Part shown: piece after piece, positions 21,258 to 40,308 of the stretch | Layout of the letters: each line of letters opens with the position of its first letter | Numbering within the stretch: position 1 is the first letter of the stretch | DNA from: Leisingera thetidis | Lineage (GTDB): Bacteria > Pseudomonadota > Alphaproteobacteria > Rhodobacterales > Rhodobacteraceae | Direction of reading: 5' to 3' | NCBI RefSeq assembly: GCF_025857195.1 | Contig: NZ_CP109787.1 | Coordinates: 1,119,501 to 1,183,500, forward strand | DNA: 64,000 nt | Program-made: the position numbers and the translations under genes | The notes under the pieces: generated by a model | Databases searched by the model: none | What the model was told of the DNA's origin: nothing | What the model saw: the letters and a program-made list of their open reading frames with translations, nothing else

Positions 21258-21771
21258 GAGAATGTCTCCCTGAAAGGCCTTTTCGTTTCGCGCGCACCAC
21301 AGCATGGCTGCGCACAGAAGGCAATTGCGGGAATGCCGCGGCGGAAATCTCCCGCCCGCCGCCAGGCTGCGGGCTGTGATAGAGCGCCTTGCCGGACCAA
21401 GCAGGCGCGGCACCGCCCGGGTGTGCCGCAGATCGGCGCGGCGCCGTCTCCCATGGTGAAAAATATCCTGCAGATGGCGGTCGAGCTCACCCGGCAACAG
21501 GCAATGTCTTGAGCGATGGGCAAAGCCGGATCGGTCCCGGCTGACAGCACGGTGTCGGTCCTGTCCAGGTCATGACCATTTTCCAGCGCAAGAACCTGGT
21601 CCCGCCGGACGGCAAGCCTGCCACCTGGTGAGAATAGCGGGATGCCGTGCCCCGCACCGGCCGTTCTGCGGCAAGTCAGGCGGGTACTGATACCCGCAAG
21701 TGGGGCCTGTAGTGGGGCTGGCAAATGGCAGTCCCGGCTAGCATCCAGTTACATCATGATTTTTTAGAAAG
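21258..21771. other. gene-free host sequence between metY and the integrated element
   Basis: About 510 bp hold the metY promoter and leader (minus strand) and then GC-rich sequence up to the element boundary at 21772. Frames here look non-coding. No riboswitch, terminator or repeat was recognised. Confidence 0.5.
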
Positions 21772-21817
21772 ATGGTGCCCCCACACGGACTCGAACCGCG
21801 GACCTACTGATTACAAA
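21772..21817. repeat. attL: duplicated 3' part of tRNA-Thr
   Basis: These 46 bp are identical to 29543-29588. They comprise the CCA end, acceptor 3' strand, T-arm, variable loop and anticodon-stem 3' side of tRNA-Thr read on the minus strand, and stop just past the anticodon. The sequence then diverges, so no complete tRNA is encoded here; this is the attachment-site scar. Confidence 0.93.
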
Positions 21818-21946
21818 AATTCCTCAGGGCATTTCTCCGGATTTCGCCAAACTTCGCTGACCACCCATAAAAGACTGTTATTGCTTGATTATTATTGACG
21901 GTCGCTACGCTCTCCTCTCATTTTCAACGCCATATTCCGAAGCACA

Positions 21947-21968
21947 CTGCTTCCTATATGCTTCCGGA
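21947..21968 (+). repeat. subterminal 22-bp direct repeat, left copy
   Basis: This 22-mer is repeated exactly at 29457-29478 in the same orientation. It contains two TGCTTCC half-sites separated by TATA, that is, repeated with an 11-bp period. It lies 129 bp inside attL and just before the integrase start. The shape and position suggest an integrase arm-type or excisionase binding site. Confidence 0.7.
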
Positions 21969-22005
21969 TTTTAAAATCGAACGTTGCGAGAGTGAAGAAA
22001 CTGAG

Positions 22006-23193
22006 ATGACAAAACTTACAAAACGGATCGTGGACGGGCTTGCCCCAGAGGCGAAGGAACGGATCATTTGGGACCAGGAATTGCCCGGATTTGGCATCCG
22101 CATCTATCCTACTGGCCGCAAGGTCTACCTCGTGCAATACCGCAGCAGTGGCAGGACGCGGCGCAAGAACCTTGGACAGCACGGAGTCTTGACGGCAGAC
22201 GAAGCACGCAAAGAGGCCAAGCTTGTACAAGCCGACGTCGCGCGGGGCGGCGACCCCTCTGCGGAGCGTAAGGCAAAGCTGCGCAGCCTGACAGTGGCCG
22301 CACTGGCGGAACGGTTCCTAGCGGAGCACGTTGCACTGCATTGCAAGCCTTCCACGCATTACGATTATTCCAATACCGTTCGAGGCACGATCAACCCTGC
22401 CCTGGGGCCGATTAAAATCACCGAAATCACCCGCGCCGACATTGCCAACTTCCACCACCAGAAACGGGATACTCCATATCAGGCAAATCGTGCTGTCGCC
22501 CTGCTGTCCAAGATGTTCAATGTGGCCGAGGACTGGGGCCTGCGTCCGCAGGGCTCGAACCCAGCCACTCGGATCAAGAAGTATCGCGAAGTTGAAAAGA
22601 AGCGCTACCTGAACGACGCCGAACAGGCACAGCTTGGGGAAACCTTGTTTGAGGGCCTCGATTCAGGTGAGCTTTCAGAATACGTTGTCGCCGCCATTTA
22701 CCTGCTGATGCTCACAGGATGCCGTCTCAAAGAAATTCAAGCGCTGCAGTGGGATTTTGTCACCTCGACGCATTTAGAGCTTCCAGACAGCAAAACAGGC
22801 AGACGGCGCATTCCTCTACCCAGAGAGGCACAGACAGTCCTGGACGCCTTGCCCCGCCGTGAGGGAAACCCTTACGTCATTCTGGGGGACAGTCCCGAAG
22901 GCCACTACAACGATTTGCAAAAGCCGTGGCGCAAGATCAGAGCCAAGGCCGGTCTGCACGACGTGCGATTGCACGATCTGCGGCATACCTATGCTTCGGT
23001 TGCTGTCACAAATGGGATTGACCCATTCATGCTCAAAGAAATCATGGGACACAAAAACCTGTCCACAACACTGCGGTACGCGCATCTCGCAGACGACGCA
23101 GTTCAACGAGCTGCCGGGTCGATTGCATCGCGTCTGGCTAGCGCCATGCAGAGGAGCGAAGGTCGTCCGCATGGGTTGCGTGCCGTGGGATAA
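22006..23193 (+). CDS. int: tyrosine recombinase / phage-type integrase
   Basis: A 395-residue site-specific recombinase with the N-terminal DUF4102 arm-binding domain (KLTKRIVDGLAPEAKERIIW, then GFGIRIYPTGRK) and a C-terminal catalytic domain. Catalytic residues are all visible: Arg240 (LTGCRLKEI), His323 and Arg326 (HDLRHT), His349 (GHKNLS) and Tyr358 (LRYAHL). Such P4-type integrases insert at tRNA 3' ends, which agrees with the adjacent attL and the tRNA-Thr target. I chose ATG 22006, since the known domain starts there; its ribosome-binding site is weak. It is transcribed inward from the left end of the element. Confidence 0.95.
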   Translation: MTKLTKRIVDGLAPEAKERIIWDQELPGFGIRIYPTGRKVYLVQYRSSGRTRRKNLGQHGVLTADEARKEAKLVQADVARGGDPSAERKAKLRSLTVAALAERFLAEHVALHCKPSTHYDYSNTVRGTINPALGPIKITEITRADIANFHHQKRDTPYQANRAVALLSKMFNVAEDWGLRPQGSNPATRIKKYREVEKKRYLNDAEQAQLGETLFEGLDSGELSEYVVAAIYLLMLTGCRLKEIQALQWDFVTSTHLELPDSKTGRRRIPLPREAQTVLDALPRREGNPYVILGDSPEGHYNDLQKPWRKIRAKAGLHDVRLHDLRHTYASVAVTNGIDPFMLKEIMGHKNLSTTLRYAHLADDAVQRAAGSIASRLASAMQRSEGRPHGLRAVG

Positions 23194-23237: not shown

Positions 23238-24074
23238 ATGCGTCATAACCTTCCAAAGCTCCGTTTTCATAGGGACCAGTTCATTACCCTAAACGAAGGG
23301 TTCGACCGGGCCGGGCGTTTCACCTTTCCGCTCGAATGGACAGGTCAAGAAGCGTTTGCGTGGCCTGAAGCCGCGCCTGAATTATTCAGGAATGAGCGTG
23401 AAGAGTTAGAGAATGAGTTCCAGAGGTTGAACAAGAGGGCAACTGATCTGCATCTGATGGATACTTTCGGTATGGACGCTGATCAGCAGGAACAGGTTCA
23501 ACAAGCTGCAGAAGATGCTTCTGCTCAGCGAGAACAGGCGCGAAACAAGCTCAGCCAATTTGGAAGAGCATATGACTCTCGTTTTATAGATGCCGAGGCG
23601 TACGCTAGACGTACCGAAGTTGAGGGTCTGCTCTGCCGGGCGATGGAGAAACGGGAGCTTCTACTCCATTTTGGAACGGGTACCGGCATAAGGCTGGGCG
23701 ACTGGCAGGCTGACAACCGCTATTTCGAGATGAGTTTCGGGTTCAGCTATGTCATTGCACCCAAGAGCTACGGTGGCCGCCGCCGTTTCCCTGCCTATTT
23801 TAAGCTCCGCGATTTTAATGCATGGGCAGAGCCCAAAGAGGCTGAGCTCACTCCCTACGAAGCTGCCCCGATTGAAGAGCGAATGATCGAATGGTTCCTG
23901 AAGTACCGAGCGGTTTGCTTAGCTGAAGGCCGCAAAGTGCGGCAGGAAGACGTCAGGGCCGAGTGTGAAGAACACTTTGGGCGCAAGGATCTCGGACGCA
24001 AGTTTGAAGCGGTTTGGAAGCTGCTGGCGGTGGACGAAATCCGTAAGGTTGGGCGCACAAAAAAATCCGCCTAG
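23238..24074 (+). CDS. hypothetical protein of the integrative element
   Basis: A 278-residue protein that I do not recognise. The first 60 residues are mixed; residues about 52-110 (NEREELENEFQRLNKRATDL, then QQEQVQQAAEDASAQREQA) are strongly charged and probably coiled coil; the last 70 (IEERMIEWFLKYRAVCLAEG, RAECEEHFGRKDLGRKFEAV) are helical and basic and could be a winged-helix-like DNA-binding domain. It starts 44 bp after the integrase stop on the same strand. No signal peptide or membrane segment. A regulatory or replication accessory role is possible but unproven. Confidence 0.7.
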   Translation: MRHNLPKLRFHRDQFITLNEGFDRAGRFTFPLEWTGQEAFAWPEAAPELFRNEREELENEFQRLNKRATDLHLMDTFGMDADQQEQVQQAAEDASAQREQARNKLSQFGRAYDSRFIDAEAYARRTEVEGLLCRAMEKRELLLHFGTGTGIRLGDWQADNRYFEMSFGFSYVIAPKSYGGRRRFPAYFKLRDFNAWAEPKEAELTPYEAAPIEERMIEWFLKYRAVCLAEGRKVRQEDVRAECEEHFGRKDLGRKFEAVWKLLAVDEIRKVGRTKKSA

Positions 24075-24255: not shown

Positions 24256-24480
24256 ATGATCAACAATCGCTTGAACGGGCACGATCCCGACACCCTAGTA
24301 GACGAGCGCGAAGCCGCATCGTTCCTGTGCTATTCCGTGCGCGCTCTTCAGAACTGGCGGCATCGTGGCGGCGGCCCGCGCTTCGTCAAAGTATCCTCGC
24401 GCTCTGTCCGTTACCGGCGCGCTGACCTTTTGGACTGGATTGCTGAGCGAACAGTCTCCCACACGTCGCAACCCATCTGA
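24256..24480 (+). CDS. AlpA/excisionase-like helix-turn-helix protein
   Basis: A 74-residue protein consisting of one MerR-like winged HTH of the HTH_17 group: VDEREAASFLCYSVRALQNW, then RHRGGGPRFVKV and VRYRRADLLDWI. Proteins of this size and form act as excisionases or as activators of integrase/replication genes (AlpA of cryptic prophage P4-like elements). Its place between the integrase block and the replication block fits a lifestyle switch. About 180 bp of AT-rich sequence lie upstream and may carry its promoter; two hairpins lie downstream. Confidence 0.85.
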   Translation: MINNRLNGHDPDTLVDEREAASFLCYSVRALQNWRHRGGGPRFVKVSSRSVRYRRADLLDWIAERTVSHTSQPI

Positions 24481-24545: not shown

Positions 24546-24585
24546 AGGGCGCGGGGTAAACGCACCTCGCGCCCTCTCTTTGTCT
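24546..24585 (+). terminator. strong hairpin between HTH gene and replication block
   Basis: A twelve-base-pair stem (24546-24557 with 24564-24575, one G-T pair) with a six-base loop, followed by a pyrimidine/T-rich run CTCTTTGTCT. It probably terminates the HTH transcript or regulates read-through into the replication genes. Confidence 0.5.
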
Positions 24586-24618
24586 GCTGCCAGGAACCAT
24601 CATCAAAAGGAAAACAAC

Positions 24619-24840
24619 ATGGCAAACCAGCCTATCCACAAAATCAGACTCGGGCTGATCACAGCCGCCATCTGGGACAATGACGGGTTCTATTCCGTCG
24701 ATGTTACGCGGGCCTACAGGACCAGTGACGGCAACTGGCAGAGCTCTACCAGCTTCTCCCACGCGGACTTGCTCAACGTTGCCAAATGCGCTGAGCGCGC
24801 AGAAATCTGGATCGGGAGGCAGGTCAATGCTGCGAAATGA
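24619..24840 (+). CDS. small hypothetical protein upstream of rep
   Basis: A 73-residue protein (MANQPIHKIRLGLITAAIWD...) with no motif I can name. The pattern IRLGLITAAIWDNDGFYSVDVTR alternates hydrophobic residues like a small beta-sheet domain, followed by one helix (SHADLLNVAKCAERAEIWIG). AAAAGG lies before the ATG at 24619. Its end overlaps the likely start of the replication initiator by 14 bp, so the two are probably translationally coupled and the small protein may serve in replication. Confidence 0.75.
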   Translation: MANQPIHKIRLGLITAAIWDNDGFYSVDVTRAYRTSDGNWQSSTSFSHADLLNVAKCAERAEIWIGRQVNAAK

Positions 24841-26122
24841 CATCGATGCCGGGCATTCTGCCCGGCCCCAAAACCTTAGCTACCCCGCCGGAGGCGCAAC
24901 TGGCACCCAGTACGGGCAAAGGGGGGTGATTGTAGCACCCCCCTCCAGAAATACAGATCAATCAAAACCTGCCGACATGACCATTCTCCACTGTGGCTTT
25001 GACACGCTGACGCTGGCGGTTCAGGCCAACATTCCCCCAGTTTTGTTTGACCATCTGGACGCTGAAAGGGAACGTGCGGAACAGGAACGCCAGGACGTGC
25101 TTGTCGAGTACAACGGCATCCACTTGCACCTTAAGTCACACGGCGGGCATGGCTACCGCTTTATTGCCAGCGGCGGCCCGCACGGGGCCACGTGGTTCTT
25201 CAAGAAACCGAACCCAAAAGACGCCTGGGGCATCCGCGTCAACTTCGGCTCCACCTTCCTTGCATTGAATGGATTGGGCGCCGCCAAAGCCCACCTGGAG
25301 ATGGTGACAGCAGCCTTGGGCATCCGCTATGGCGCGGACGACATCAGCATTTCCAGGGCTGATTTCTGCGTGGATGTTCTGGCTCCGCATTTCGAACTGA
25401 ACCCGGAGCAATTCGTCATGCACTCAAGCGCTGGCCGCAGGGACTTTGTGAAAGAAACGGACAAAGCCGTGCACGGCCGTTCAGGCCGCACAACCTCCGT
25501 AACGGTCGGCAGTTCCCGCAACCGGCAGGTCATTGTCTATGACAAGCGGGCCGAAATCATCCACTCAGGCAAAGCGCATTGGTGGGAGATCTGGAACATG
25601 GAACTGCGCCGCAATGGATTGAGCGAGGTTGATCCGAAATGCGCTGACAGCAGCAGGGTTTGGCGTGTCGAATTCCGCGCAGGCAAGGACCTATTGAAAG
25701 ACCGCTGGAACATCCGCACCTGGGCGCAGTTCTTTGACCGCTTCGGCGACCTTTGCCGGGAAACAGGTGAAGTTGTCCGCTACACGGAGCCTAATGCAAC
25801 GGATTGCAACCGCGCGAGATGGCCAAACCATCTCATTTGGGAACTTGCCTGTTCAGAAATGAATGGCGACCTGATGGAGATGCGCAGCGGTTGTGACCCA
25901 AACCCGCTCAAAGAGGTGCATAAGGAACAGCAGATATCCATGATCTTGCGGAATGTTCTCGGATGCACGGTCACATTGGCCGCACTGCGCGGCGTCCAGT
26001 ACTCGGAGCTGCCCGGATTCTTCCAGACAACGGCAGACGAACTGACCCACAAGTCACGTCTGTACCCGGAAAAGGTCGCGAAACAACTGGAAGATGCCAG
26101 GAACCGCTATGTTTTTATCTGA
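24827..26122 (+). CDS. replication initiation protein (Rep_trans-like)
   Basis: About 431 residues from ATG 24827, chosen because GGGAGG lies seven bases upstream; an internal ATG at 24977 would give 381 residues. The body shows the pattern of rolling-circle Rep_trans/phage replication factors: SRADFCVDVL (near nt 25350), SSRNRQVIVYDKRAEI (near 25510-25560, containing the candidate catalytic tyrosine YDK) and VWRVEFRAGKDLL (near 25660). It should nick or open an element origin. The stop codon merges with the first unit of an iteron-like array, the arrangement seen in satellite elements where the origin lies just downstream of rep. Family assignment is from motif pattern only. Confidence 0.7.
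   Translation: MLRNDIDAGHSARPQNLSYPAGGATGTQYGQRGVIVAPPSRNTDQSKPADMTILHCGFDTLTLAVQANIPPVLFDHLDAERERAEQERQDVLVEYNGIHLHLKSHGGHGYRFIASGGPHGATWFFKKPNPKDAWGIRVNFGSTFLALNGLGAAKAHLEMVTAALGIRYGADDISISRADFCVDVLAPHFELNPEQFVMHSSAGRRDFVKETDKAVHGRSGRTTSVTVGSSRNRQVIVYDKRAEIIHSGKAHWWEIWNMELRRNGLSEVDPKCADSSRVWRVEFRAGKDLLKDRWNIRTWAQFFDRFGDLCRETGEVVRYTEPNATDCNRARWPNHLIWELACSEMNGDLMEMRSGCDPNPLKEVHKEQQISMILRNVLGCTVTLAALRGVQYSELPGFFQTTADELTHKSRLYPEKVAKQLEDARNRYVFI
24921..24943 (+). other. perfect G-run/C-run hairpin in the rep leader
   Basis: GGGGGGTG (24921-24928) and CACCCCCC (24936-24943) form an eight-base-pair stem with loop ATTGTAG. It falls inside the N-terminal extension of the rep frame, upstream of the alternative start at 24977. 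It might be an RNA regulatory hairpin controlling rep translation, or a nick-site hairpin of a rolling-circle origin. Confidence 0.45.
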
Positions 26123-26586: not shown

Positions 26587-27504
26587 TCAACCAAGCAGAA
26601 TGACTCTAGGACAATCCAAAATATCCAACACGTCCCCCATACTGCCATCGCCTTCTTTCGAAGGAAAAATCAACGCTACTTTGGCCCGTGTCAAATCCCT
26701 TACGCGAGAAAAACTCCCTTCAAAGCCTAGAGATTTTGCTCTCTCATTGCCAAACTTTTCCAACTGCATAATCAATTGACTAGAATTCATCTCCTCCACA
26801 TCCACTAAGACCGAAGTCGCATGTGGTGTCTTTTCTGCCATAAACTTATCGTCAATCTGACAGACATTGTATAAGAAAACTGTCTCAAGCCGAGCCGATC
26901 TCATGCAGCGTGTGAGCTCATCTACATTTGTAGTCGGAGTTTCTGTGCCTGCTTTTCTGCACTGCTCTCTCAAAATTTCGGACCTGCGCTCCGCATCGAA
27001 AACCAGAGGTAGAACCTGTGAATGATCGGGAACTTTTTTTCTATCGGCGGTGTACCCCGGGCAAACCTCCTCACATTGCTTCTTGAGCTTGGAACGATGT
27101 TGCGAGCTACTATAGTCCACGAAGTGTAGGACCAACCACAGCTCAAAGCACGGATCACTGGCCGCTATTCGCACATTATTCTTTGAAGCCAGTTCGATGG
27201 CGGAATGATAATGTTCATGATCATCACGATCAAATACCGCCCATACTTGATCTTGGTCACCAAATTCATCCCTATACTCTTCCGTCGAGATTTCTTGCTC
27301 TTTGGCAATCGACCGCCTTACCAGAGCACTCGGATCTGCGCCACCTTCTCCGAAAATTACTTCAATTGACGCTCGGCAATAGGAAACATTGTATGCCTCT
27401 ATATACTCAGGTTCGGTGTTCACTCCTTCGCAGAAAATGTAAAACTTCTTTCTCCGCTCGCGCGACCCAGGAGAGCGTCGAGCCATTCTATTCGATCTAT
27501 TCAT
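26587..27504 (-). CDS. rloB: RloB-family TOPRIM-like protein (AbiL-type defence component)
   Basis: A 305-residue protein. FYIFCEGVNTEPEYIEAY (Glu26) and VWAVFDRDDHEHYH (Asp92, Asp94) supply the E...DxD acidic set of a TOPRIM fold, and SDPCFELWLVLHF (116-128) is the RloB family signature. RloB-like proteins (AbiLii) pair with an ABC/AAA ATPase in abortive-infection systems; the TOPRIM part is expected to be a nuclease effector held inactive until phage infection. It starts 17 bp after the ATPase stop, same strand, so one operon. The DNA is clearly poorer in GC than the host genes and uses A/T-ending codons freely, pointing to separate acquisition. Target is unknown. Confidence 0.88.
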   Translation of the reverse strand: MNRSNRMARRSPGSRERRKKFYIFCEGVNTEPEYIEAYNVSYCRASIEVIFGEGGADPSALVRRSIAKEQEISTEEYRDEFGDQDQVWAVFDRDDHEHYHSAIELASKNNVRIAASDPCFELWLVLHFVDYSSSQHRSKLKKQCEEVCPGYTADRKKVPDHSQVLPLVFDAERRSEILREQCRKAGTETPTTNVDELTRCMRSARLETVFLYNVCQIDDKFMAEKTPHATSVLVDVEEMNSSQLIMQLEKFGNERAKSLGFEGSFSRVRDLTRAKVALIFPSKEGDGSMGDVLDILDCPRVILLG

Positions 27505-27521
27505 TTGACTATACCTGCTTC

Positions 27522-28826
27522 CTAGATCTCACTAGCAGGGTCATCTTTTAAGAAGTGCCTGTAACTGAATTTCGCTGGAACAGCACCATAACGACCATCC
27601 AGGTACTGTTTCTCAAGAATTTCGTCTCGACGTACAGAGAATTCCGACAATGGAAAATATTCTGAGGCACCTCCATGAGATTTTTCTACGAACCAAATTT
27701 CGTCTCGCCGCAAGTGATCGGTGCTGAGAATATTAGTGTCGTGAGTTGTTGAAATCAATTGTGCGTTTTTTTTGTTGATTTTTCTATTCGTAAATAGCTC
27801 AATAATCGATCTCACCGCAAAGGTATGCAAGCTAGCGTCCAACTCGTCGATAAACGCTACACGCCCTTCGTCAAGAGTCTTGAAGATGTGGTTCAATAAC
27901 TCGAGCAACCTTCTAGTACCCAAGCTCTCCTGATCAATATTAAAGTAGATCGCTTCACCGTTGTCGCTTCTATGTTCTAGCTGAAGACTCACTTCCTTCA
28001 TGTCCGTAGGAAATATGTCCTCTTCGGGCAATTCTTCTTCATCATCTGAATGCTTTTGCATTACTCGCACAATATCATTCAAAATAGTGCGCTTCTTAGG
28101 TGTAAGGTCCGCTCGCCTTGTTTTGTATCCAATAATACCTGTGCCAATTAAGTTGAGAAACTTAATTGCGCGCTCGTCCACCTCCCCCTGTTCAAGAGAG
28201 GAAGTGACAAATTTATCGGCGAACGAGAGCTGTGTTGAAAGGTAGGATGACGAAAAAAATTGGGCGGCACCTGCTAATTCATCATGATTGTGCTGTGCAG
28301 CCACTGTAAGAAACAGCGCATCAGGCCTTGTAAGTTCAGAAATTGTCTTTTTTGCCCCTTTAAATGTAGCGCCAAAATCTATTTCATCTCCACTTCTGGA
28401 GAAGAGTTTCCTGCGGCGACCTTCTGGAAAGGCGTCAAGGTATTCTGAATGAATTCTTTCCGCATCATGTGAAAATCCATAGTCATATCGTGTCCCATTG
28501 AGGGTGAATGAGACGTCAAAGGTTGTAGGACAATCACTCCACCCCCCTCCCAGCAAAAATGGTTGATGCGGAATCTTTGCGTTCAATTTCCTTGGGCTAT
28601 GTGATGTGAGTATCAAACTACGCATACGCTCGAATGCAGAGATCAAATTTGATTTCCCAGATGCATTGGGGCCATAGATTATGGCGCAGGGCAGCACACC
28701 TTCGGTCACCGATGGGATACTGACATCGAACGGTTCATGGCTCCCGGCGAGCTTTGTCGCCACCATTGAAAGAGTCTGTTGATCACCAATCGACATGAAG
28801 TTGGTTACACTGAAGCTAAGAAGCAT
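27522..28826 (-). CDS. AAA15/ABC-type ATPase, partner of RloB (AbiL/PARIS-like)
   Basis: A 434-residue ATPase. Walker A GPNASGKS at 52-59 follows the SMC/OLD-like opening MLLSFSVTNFMSIGDQQTLSM; the ABC signature SLGTRR is at 301-306, Walker B VAFIDE at 323-328, D-loop LDASLH after it, and the switch histidine in STTHDTNIL (His362). The C-terminal KQYLDGRYGAVP is typical of AAA15 (AAA_21) proteins. Such ATPases act as sensors and cages for a TOPRIM effector. ATG 28826 has GAAGG upstream; a GTG at 28853 would add nine residues. First gene of the two-gene cargo operon. Confidence 0.9.
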   Translation of the reverse strand: MLLSFSVTNFMSIGDQQTLSMVATKLAGSHEPFDVSIPSVTEGVLPCAIIYGPNASGKSNLISAFERMRSLILTSHSPRKLNAKIPHQPFLLGGGWSDCPTTFDVSFTLNGTRYDYGFSHDAERIHSEYLDAFPEGRRRKLFSRSGDEIDFGATFKGAKKTISELTRPDALFLTVAAQHNHDELAGAAQFFSSSYLSTQLSFADKFVTSSLEQGEVDERAIKFLNLIGTGIIGYKTRRADLTPKKRTILNDIVRVMQKHSDDEEELPEEDIFPTDMKEVSLQLEHRSDNGEAIYFNIDQESLGTRRLLELLNHIFKTLDEGRVAFIDELDASLHTFAVRSIIELFTNRKINKKNAQLISTTHDTNILSTDHLRRDEIWFVEKSHGGASEYFPLSEFSVRRDEILEKQYLDGRYGAVPAKFSYRHFLKDDPASEI

Positions 28827-29542
28827 CGTCCGGCCTTCACCTTTGTTCCACACCGCATTAGAACGCGATTTTTGTGGAAATTCCGTAAATTTGCTGACGA
28901 AACAGCTAATTTCTCACTGTTCGGATGTCAACTTGATCGTGTGGACTGGCGGCTCGCCACGCTACGGTGAACGAAGAATGCCGTGCACAGGCTAGTTCTT
29001 TCACTCGGCCCCAAGCTGGCTGCGAAGCATTGCGATGAAGTACACGACTACTTTGGTCGATAGCCGAGCTCCAGCATCGCAAAGTTGACCGCAGAAGCCC
29101 CGCCGGTCCGAGCGATAGGGTCAATGCTAACGCCTTGCGTAGGTTCTTGTTCGCCTGGCACAGCTGGCAGTTCTCAACTTCCAGCGCATTCATCTCGTCG
29201 GCGACGTTAATTGGATTTTCTTCCGGCATGGCGGTGCAGCGAACTTCTGGTTTCCGTCCGGTGAGAGCCATGGAGGCCGCAAACTGCTGGGCATTTGCTA
29301 CTGCAGCGAATGTCCGGAAGGTCCCGTTTGGGCTCCGCTTTCAAACCTTGCCTTTCACACAGACCAAGAGCCTCACAGCGCCTGACCCACAGCATTCGTT
29401 TGTGAAAAAGTTTTCTGTAGCGATGCAGAGATGACACGCCAGAAATCTGCTTGCCGCTGCTTCCTATATGCTTCCGGACTTGAAAGCTGTGCACATCGCG
29501 CGAATGAGTAAGCCCTGCAAGTGTTTGATTTATATTGGAAAA
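28827..29542. other. right-end gene-free segment of the element
   Basis: About 700 bp between the ATPase start and attR. It must hold the cargo-operon promoter near 28830-28950. Open frames of 60-120 codons exist on both strands (for example minus 28906-29271, with a short coiled-coil-like stretch), but none has a good start, family motif or steady codon bias; they may be remnants. The 22-bp subterminal repeat is at 29457-29478. Confidence 0.5.
29457..29478 (+). repeat. subterminal 22-bp direct repeat, right copy
   Basis: Exact copy of 21947-21968, same orientation, ending 64 bp before attR. Flanking bases differ between the copies, so this is a discrete conserved site rather than part of a longer duplication. 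Confidence 0.7.
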
Positions 29543-29588
29543 ATGGTGCCCCCACACGGACTCGAACCGCGGACCTACTGATTACAAA
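29543..29588. repeat. attR: right copy of the 46-bp att repeat, within tRNA-Thr
   Basis: Identical to 21772-21817 and forming the 3' 45 nt of the intact tRNA-Thr gene plus one base beyond its CCA. Integration therefore left a functional tRNA on this side. Confidence 0.93.
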
Positions 29589-29619
29589 TCAGTTGCTCTA
29601 CCAGCTGAGCTATAGGGGC
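29544..29619 (-). tRNA. tRNA-Thr (anticodon TGT)
   Basis: Read on the minus strand, the gene starts GCCCCTATAGCTCAG, has the D-arm, anticodon loop TTTGTAA (anticodon TGT), the T-arm CGCGGTTCGAGTCCGTG and ends with an encoded CCA. The acceptor stem GCCCCTA pairs fully with TGGGGGC (one G-T pair). It decodes ACA/ACG-type threonine codons. The 3' half is the integration target of the adjacent element. Confidence 0.96.
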
Positions 29620-40154: not shown

Positions 40155-40194
40155 TCAAACGGTTGCCCCCAAGGGGAGCAATGGACGCTCCTAG

Positions 40195-40306
40195 CTTCCT
40201 ACGCCAGTGTCAACTGGGTCAGGTTCAAAGGGTCGCGCCGCCGGTACGGGTTGCCCCGCACCTGAACGCCTCTCAGTCCCTTGGGCGGGACTCCCCTGCG
40301 TAGCCA
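40195..40306 (-). promoter_or_regulatory. TPP riboswitch (THI element)
   Basis: On the minus strand the conserved aptamer elements appear in order: AGGGGAGTCCC, then ACTGAGAGGCG (pyrimidine-sensing arm), then GAACCTGACCCAGTTGACAC and GGCGTAGGAAGC (pyrophosphate arm and P1). The aptamer precedes thiC, which agrees with feedback repression by thiamin pyrophosphate. An inverted repeat TGCTCCCC/GGGGGCA at about 40163-40181 may be part of the expression platform. Confidence 0.95.
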
Positions 40307-40308
40307 TA

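Follow-up and report, generated by a model that had tools for sequence, protein, structure and literature searches.

An AbiL-type ATPase–RloB pair with an extra C-terminal domain is probable exchangeable cargo of a small tRNA-integrating element in Leisingera thetidis

A stretch of 64,000 nucleotides of Leisingera thetidis DNA (contig NZ_CP109787.1, positions 1,119,501 to 1,183,500; hereafter the window, in whose numbering all positions below are given) carries two adjacent genes that, as judged from their sequences, are an AbiL-type system. AbiL itself is already known; what is new here is an extra domain on the RloB protein. We consider it likely that the pair functions as a two-gene abortive-infection system of the AbiL type and travels as exchangeable cargo of a small element that integrates into tRNA genes. 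Both genes lie on the reverse strand. The ATPase gene comes first and encodes a 434-residue ABC/AAA_21 protein of the AbiLi type (27522..28826), for which an ATG start was taken, the longest open start being a GTG at 28853. The second gene encodes a 305-residue RloB/AbiLii-type TOPRIM protein (26587..27504), and 17 bp separate the ATPase stop from the downstream RloB start. The original prediction, made from the letters alone, had described an ATPase with an RloB-family gene 17 bp downstream, and its coordinates, gap and motifs agree with ours.

That prediction had also read the second gene as RloB/TOPRIM, an assignment that profile searches could have overturned; when run, they placed the protein in PADLOC AbiLii and Pfam RloB. 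Among the PADLOC models, AbiLi and AbiLii were the best for the two proteins. For the ATPase, AbiLi (PDLC02335) was top of 58 PADLOC families (302 bits, E=1.1e-90), with AriA second at 112 bits and GajA at 29 bits or less. The RloB protein matched AbiLii (PDLC02337) over residues 6-216 (84.5 bits, E=3.1e-24), and the PADLOC scan returned no other family for it. In Pfam, the ATPase scored 114.2 bits against AAA_21 (cut-off 27) and the RloB protein 121.6 bits against RloB (cut-off 31.5), with nothing besides RloB at E<=0.1. On these scores the family assignment of both proteins is far above chance. The genome from which the window comes holds a single match to the RloB protein.

The motifs expected of the two families were located in both proteins. 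The ATPase contains GPNASGKS (with K58), LGTRR at 302, FIDELD at 325 and a TTHD motif with H362, the position of the last being counted by hand. In an alignment of 203 relatives, G52, G57, K58, S301, G303, D327, E328 and H334 are kept in all 203 and H362 in 200. The Walker A, signature, Walker B and H-switch elements had previously been described as intact. The RloB protein likewise has the E...DxD TOPRIM set claimed for it, with E26, E31, D92 and D94 all found. Among 123 relatives, D92 is kept in 122, E121 in 122, D94 in 119 and E31 in 111; at position 26, 80 of them have Glu and 26 have Asp. D92, D94 and E121 are also kept in P0002 and P0003, two relatives discussed below. The catalytic residues of both the ATPase and the TOPRIM protein are intact.

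Bacterial and archaeal genomes were scanned for the ATPase, and the best 80 of 306 confirmed stretches were kept as loci. Within these 80, locus titles range from Roseobacter to cyanobacteria, Micromonospora and Lachnospiraceae, and in 72 an RloB ORF, recognized with a profile built from 56 RloB proteins, lies directly downstream on the same strand. Sixty-nine of the 72 were counted by script and three (L021, L033 and L086) by hand, their RloB/ATPase overlap being above the script limit; some of the adjacent ORFs, with a length of 105-148 aa, are possibly truncated. The profile gave no RloB match in the other 8 of the 80, of which L065 and L075 have DNA that ends less than 300 bp from the ATPase match. 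Judged by this gene order, the ATPase–RloB pair is a conserved unit across phyla. The ATPase was absent from all 20 other same-genus genomes searched and present in 4 of 101 relatives and 2 of 380 genomes of the order (own included in both counts), and an RloB match occurred in 2 of 390 genomes of the order; this rarity in genus and order fits a mobile cargo that is rarely held. Named relatives of the ATPase come from Roseobacter sp. MH60115 and Celeribacter. Separately, plasmids of E. coli and Salmonella (H14-H20, 3.7-3.9 kb) carry an RloB gene, annotated in several of them beside an ATPase, and these are possibly natural minimal AbiL plasmids.

The RloB protein extends well past its family core. 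The RloB models end near residue 198 (Pfam) or 216 (PADLOC), and the roughly 100 residues beyond make up an additional domain (residues ~205-305; 26587..26892 on the reverse strand, including the stop codon), recognized from what is common to P0002 and P0003, a shuffle test and a structural model. It had been suggested that this RloB variety may differ from studied ones, and the extra domain gives that suggestion substance. Of 56 RloB matches from a database of ~5.8 billion proteins, three carry the tail, namely the window's own, P0002 and P0003. In these three, 102-105 residues follow the core, and the next largest extension among the 56 is 35. The 69 script-counted adjacent RloB ORFs of other genomes are 105-231 aa long, and adjacent ORFs with a nearly complete core have at most 18 residues after it. 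Of 71 matching plasmid records, the 20 listed do not extend past residue 198, and coverage of the query stays below 80% in all 71; the five phage-record matches end by residue 190 and the eight viral-contig loci by residue 205. When the three tails were compared, each pairwise score exceeded all 1000 shuffles, that between the window and P0003 narrowly (23.5 bits against a best shuffle of 22.7); by this test the three tails are homologous, one pair only narrowly. A sequencing or frame artefact was considered as the source of the tail and rejected, because two divergent proteins share it and the scores exceed the shuffles.

AlphaFold2 modelled the whole RloB protein at a pLDDT of 81.7 (five models, 62.0-81.7) and the tail alone at 75.7 (next best 61.3), predicting for the tail an order of strands, one 17-residue helix and strands. 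Fold searches with the tail returned no convincing relative, and a sequence search yielded no RloB relative of solved structure. The net charge is about -4 for the tail, which does not speak for simple nucleic-acid binding, and likewise about -4 for the remaining residues. A tree built from 58 ATPase rows joins the window's ATPase to P0058, P0059 and P0060 with full support, P0061 being next to this group; among ATPases whose partner is known to lack the tail, the nearest belongs to Roseobacter sp. MH60115, which has an RloB of 204 aa. From the lengths of their contigs we infer that P0058 pairs with P0002 and P0059 with P0003; these lengths are 3737 and 3753 in the first case, which are unequal, and 3622 and 3622 in the second. 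Our guess is that the tail probably adds contacts with the ATPase or the target and would thereby tune inhibition or specificity.

The gene pair resides in a 7.8-kb element integrated in tRNA-Thr, within which it is opposite in strand to the other genes. Its two ends, at a spacing of 7771 bp, are marked by direct repeats of 54 nt (96% identical) that belong to the 3' half of tRNA-Thr(TGT). The left copy, attL (21764..21817), is a partial copy of the 3' part of the tRNA gene, and attR (29535..29588) lies at the end of the element that has the intact tRNA-Thr(TGT), the integration target (29544..29619, reverse strand; ARAGORN and Rfam tRNA). The forward-strand genes begin with a tyrosine recombinase (22006..23193; Pfam Phage_integrase), whose start was chosen within a longest ORF of 21895-23193, homologues starting near residue 35-40 of that ORF. 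It is followed by a 278-aa protein of unknown function (23238..24074; in 4 of 18 related loci), an AlpA/excisionase-like HTH_17 protein (24256..24480; Pfam HTH_17, PHROG excisionase), a conserved small protein of 86 aa (24580..24840) and a conserved 381-aa backbone protein (24977..26122), the last supported by an order-wide search and an alignment. The 381-aa protein had no match in Pfam and a weak similarity to PHROG 1159; it is possibly a new replication initiator, which is a guess. None of the six other scanned ORFs of the element matched PADLOC. Just inside the element ends is a 29-nt direct repeat (21947..21975 and, at 93%, 29457..29485), and these copies are possible arm-type sites of the integrase. 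The related elements L106, L111, L112 and L123 have comparable copies close to each of their ends. Elsewhere in the window, a TPP riboswitch was detected at 40179-40307 (reverse strand, 55.7 bits).

Of the 20 other same-genus genomes searched, five (L124, L125, L126, L127 and L128) were used to compare the integration site. A single tRNA-Thr(TGT) is present in each of these loci, and the sequence to its right runs collinear with the window. L127 is a clean empty site, since a short segment from the left flank of the window adjoins its tRNA-Thr as well. In L124 and L128 a different chromosomal gene lies within ~560 bp left of the tRNA, so no element is present there, but synteny with the window is lacking on that side. 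The left sides of L125 and L126 do not match the window.

A search of 380 genomes of the order with the longer ORF 24680-26122 found the 381-aa protein in 45, the window's own genome among them. Named relatives of the protein belong to Ruegeria and Tritonibacter. It was found in 5 of 72,556 plasmid records and in 0 of 50,697 phage records, and it was not found in viral contigs with exact peptide patterns, by which close relatives alone are detectable. We compared the 18 best-scoring loci for this protein, the window's own excluded. All 18 contain the HTH, 86-aa and 381-aa genes, and 17 a similar integrase (at least 50% identity). Sixteen of the loci have a tRNA within 2.7-4.9 kb after the 381-aa gene, namely Thr(TGT) in 7, Lys(TTT) in 5, Arg(TCT) in 2 and Met(CAT) in 2. 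On the far side of the integrase, 15 of these 16 carry an exact partial tRNA copy of 25-67 nt, at a spacing of 7.0-9.0 kb. L117, which lacks both an att repeat and a PADLOC match, was kept in the count of cargo, and L107 (rearranged) and L113 (near a contig end, with no tRNA) were left out of it.

The stretch from the 381-aa gene to the tRNA is variable among the related elements. These slots contain 39 ORFs that reach 130 aa, of which 30 were scanned against PADLOC; 13 of the 16 slots gave a match at E<=1e-3 and 11 at E<=1e-20. The matches at the stricter threshold comprise type IIG restriction (twice), an Old/AriA/GajA-like protein, Dsr1, PDC-M30/M41, PDC-S06 (twice), beta, DRT, PDC-S46 and a type I methylase with its specificity subunit; the PDC models of PADLOC denote candidate systems. 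The slots of L114 and L116 gave weak matches only, and those of L117, L120 and L122 gave none in the scanned ORFs. As a control, the longest ORF on the far side of the tRNA was taken from each of these 16 loci, and 0 of 16 matched PADLOC; the comparison is not strictly balanced because the controls are one ORF per locus, maybe non-genes, and up to six ORFs were scanned per slot. The L122 slot contains a histidine-kinase-like ATPase, and a tRNA-Gly(CCC) is predicted within the cargo slot of L111 (10507-10580).

Going by its position and by the contents of its sister elements, the AbiL pair is cargo in the variable slot of an element family with a constant backbone. The proposal that the pair is the defence cargo of a mobile element is thereby strengthened, through the att duplication of tRNA-Thr, the same-genus sites and the PADLOC-rich sister slots. 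The element had also been called satellite-like; its architecture fits that description, but the link to a helper phage was not found in phage records or viral contigs. In openly licensed literature on roseobacter satellites and islands and on minimalist islands, no listed title describes these elements, which is weak evidence of absence.

In the mechanism that we favor, the ATPase complex of an uninfected cell would act as both sensor and brake, holding the TOPRIM subunit harmless. A phage cue acting on the ATPase would then release or activate the TOPRIM nuclease, which would cut RNA with the help of metal ions, most likely tRNA as does AriB of PARIS; translation would stop, cell growth would halt and the infection would be aborted. 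PMC12409363 describes an AriA hexamer that sequesters AriB, a TOPRIM tRNase, until a phage trigger frees it. Because of this analogy with PARIS we judge RNA, probably tRNA, to be a likelier target than DNA; the analogy reaches across families, as AriB is a DUF4435 protein and the effector here is RloB, and fold searches did not link RloB to AriB, OLD or GajA. PMC9122126 reports that PARIS requires both catalytic sites and that loss of either gene is non-toxic, the ariA case counting against the mechanism proposed here. PMC3985639 describes AbiL as a two-gene Abi system and F. nucleatum AbiLii as toxic in E. coli; it also reports that F. nucleatum AbiLi does not neutralize this AbiLii and that L. 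lactis AbiLii is non-toxic in E. coli, both of which count against our mechanism. In PMC10440598, a TOPRIM toxin of C. algidicarnis from a node homologous to RloB (D44) is listed as AAA-neutralized, the RNase-type labelling result belongs to a different, non-TOPRIM toxin, and AlphaFold is reported to give no convincing AAA–toxin interface, which is a further point against. That only 2 of the 380 genomes of the order have the pair, its own genome among them, also counts against it.

The closest competitor keeps the AbiL-type system and changes its target, the effector cutting DNA as GajA or OLD does. PMC10440598 calls GajA an endonuclease that acts on DNA and relates RloB to OLD_TOPRIM, and PMC12409363 summarizes OLD and Gabija activities on DNA; PARIS, however, a two-gene ATPase/TOPRIM system with a known target, cuts tRNA (PMC12409363), and we regard a DNA-cutting effector as unlikely, albeit the alternative to be taken most seriously. 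Somewhat less likely again is that the pair serves mainly as a weapon between elements, excluding competitors or the element's own helper phage, rather than in general immunity. The small integrating carrier, the restriction enzymes and other exclusion systems in the sisters' slot and the presence of RloB/ATPase pairs on small plasmids would suit such a role, but no helper or competitor was found in phage records or viral contigs, and the cargo of P4-like satellites and of PICMIs is reported to give general phage defense (PMC9122126, PMC10803314). We think it improbable that the pair is an addiction module, with the ATPase as an antitoxin that stabilizes the element and phage defense secondary or absent: the listing of an RloB-node TOPRIM toxin as AAA-neutralized (PMC10440598) and the toxicity of F. 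nucleatum AbiLii (PMC3985639) agree with it, yet F. nucleatum AbiLi failed to neutralize (PMC3985639), PARIS is described as not toxin-antitoxin (PMC9122126), and other systems replace the pair in the slot of sister elements. That the tail, which is rare and has no convincing fold match, turns RloB into something else, such as an inactive or regulatory subunit, is very improbable given that the catalytic residues of the TOPRIM core are all kept, with D92, D94 and E121 also present in P0002 and P0003.

An exchangeable abortive-infection system is thus our preferred reading of the pair. In its favor stand the profile matches of both proteins, the conserved catalytic residues, the RloB neighbor in 72 of 80 loci and the PADLOC-rich sister slots (13 of 16, controls 0 of 16), together with four published points: the AAA-neutralized RloB-node toxin, the toxic F. 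nucleatum AbiLii, the release of AriB from AriA and the need for both PARIS catalytic sites. Beyond it we propose, tentatively and with a little less than even confidence, that the RloB protein represents a new AbiL effector subtype with its own domain for targeting or for locking onto the ATPase, and that its carrier belongs to an undescribed family of small one-slot defense islands that integrate into tRNA genes; this family, probably at home in roseobacters and their kin, would exchange whole immune systems on a constant backbone and is maybe moved by helper phage. ATPase–TOPRIM pairs recur across many bacterial immune systems, and an RloB variant with an added domain may offer a handle on target choice or inhibition. 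The carrier family would be of wider import, for 13 of 16 sisters have PADLOC-matching genes in the slot, which a conserved gene and a tRNA delimit; since the slot is so rich in them, its unmatched genes (e.g. those of L120 and L122) are good candidates for new defense systems.

AbiL (AbiLi/AbiLii) is reportedly first described from Lactococcus lactis, by Deng et al. in 1999. The pair resembles it in the order of an ATPase and then an RloB/TOPRIM gene, and AbiL supplies the top PADLOC models for both proteins; it differs in that its RloB protein has 305 residues with an extra C-terminal domain and in that its carrier is a tRNA-integrating element, not a plasmid. PARIS similarly couples an ABC ATPase to a separate TOPRIM effector, and after AbiLi it is AriA that scores best on the ATPase in PADLOC. 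AriB is described in PMC9122126 as a DUF4435 protein, however, and membership of PARIS was rejected because the effector here is not AriB/DUF4435, having matched only RloB (Pfam) and AbiLii (PADLOC). Gabija (GajA) and OLD share the partnership of ATPase and TOPRIM. According to PMC10440598 GajA has both domains in one chain, whereas those of the window are in separate ORFs and GajA scores 29 bits or less on the ATPase, and membership of Gabija was likewise rejected. The nearest element that we found in print is PICMI of the Vibrionaceae, which follows the same logic (PMC10803314); in the main text of that paper the words Rhodobacter and Alphaproteobacteria do not occur. PICMI and P4-like elements resemble the window's element as small islands with an integrase, an AlpA/HTH_17 gene, a third conserved gene and one defense hotspot near the attachment gene, a layout described for PICMI in PMC10803314; the P4 hotspot is described in PMC9122126. 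PMC10803314 defines PICMI by an integrase together with an AlpA-type (HTH_17) gene, and the window's element has both. No DUF3987/DUF5906 match was obtained among its scanned ORFs in Pfam. It differs from PICMI in its seat, which is tRNA-Thr and not a position beside fis, and in its third gene, where the conserved 381-aa protein stands in place of the DUF3987/DUF5906 primase.
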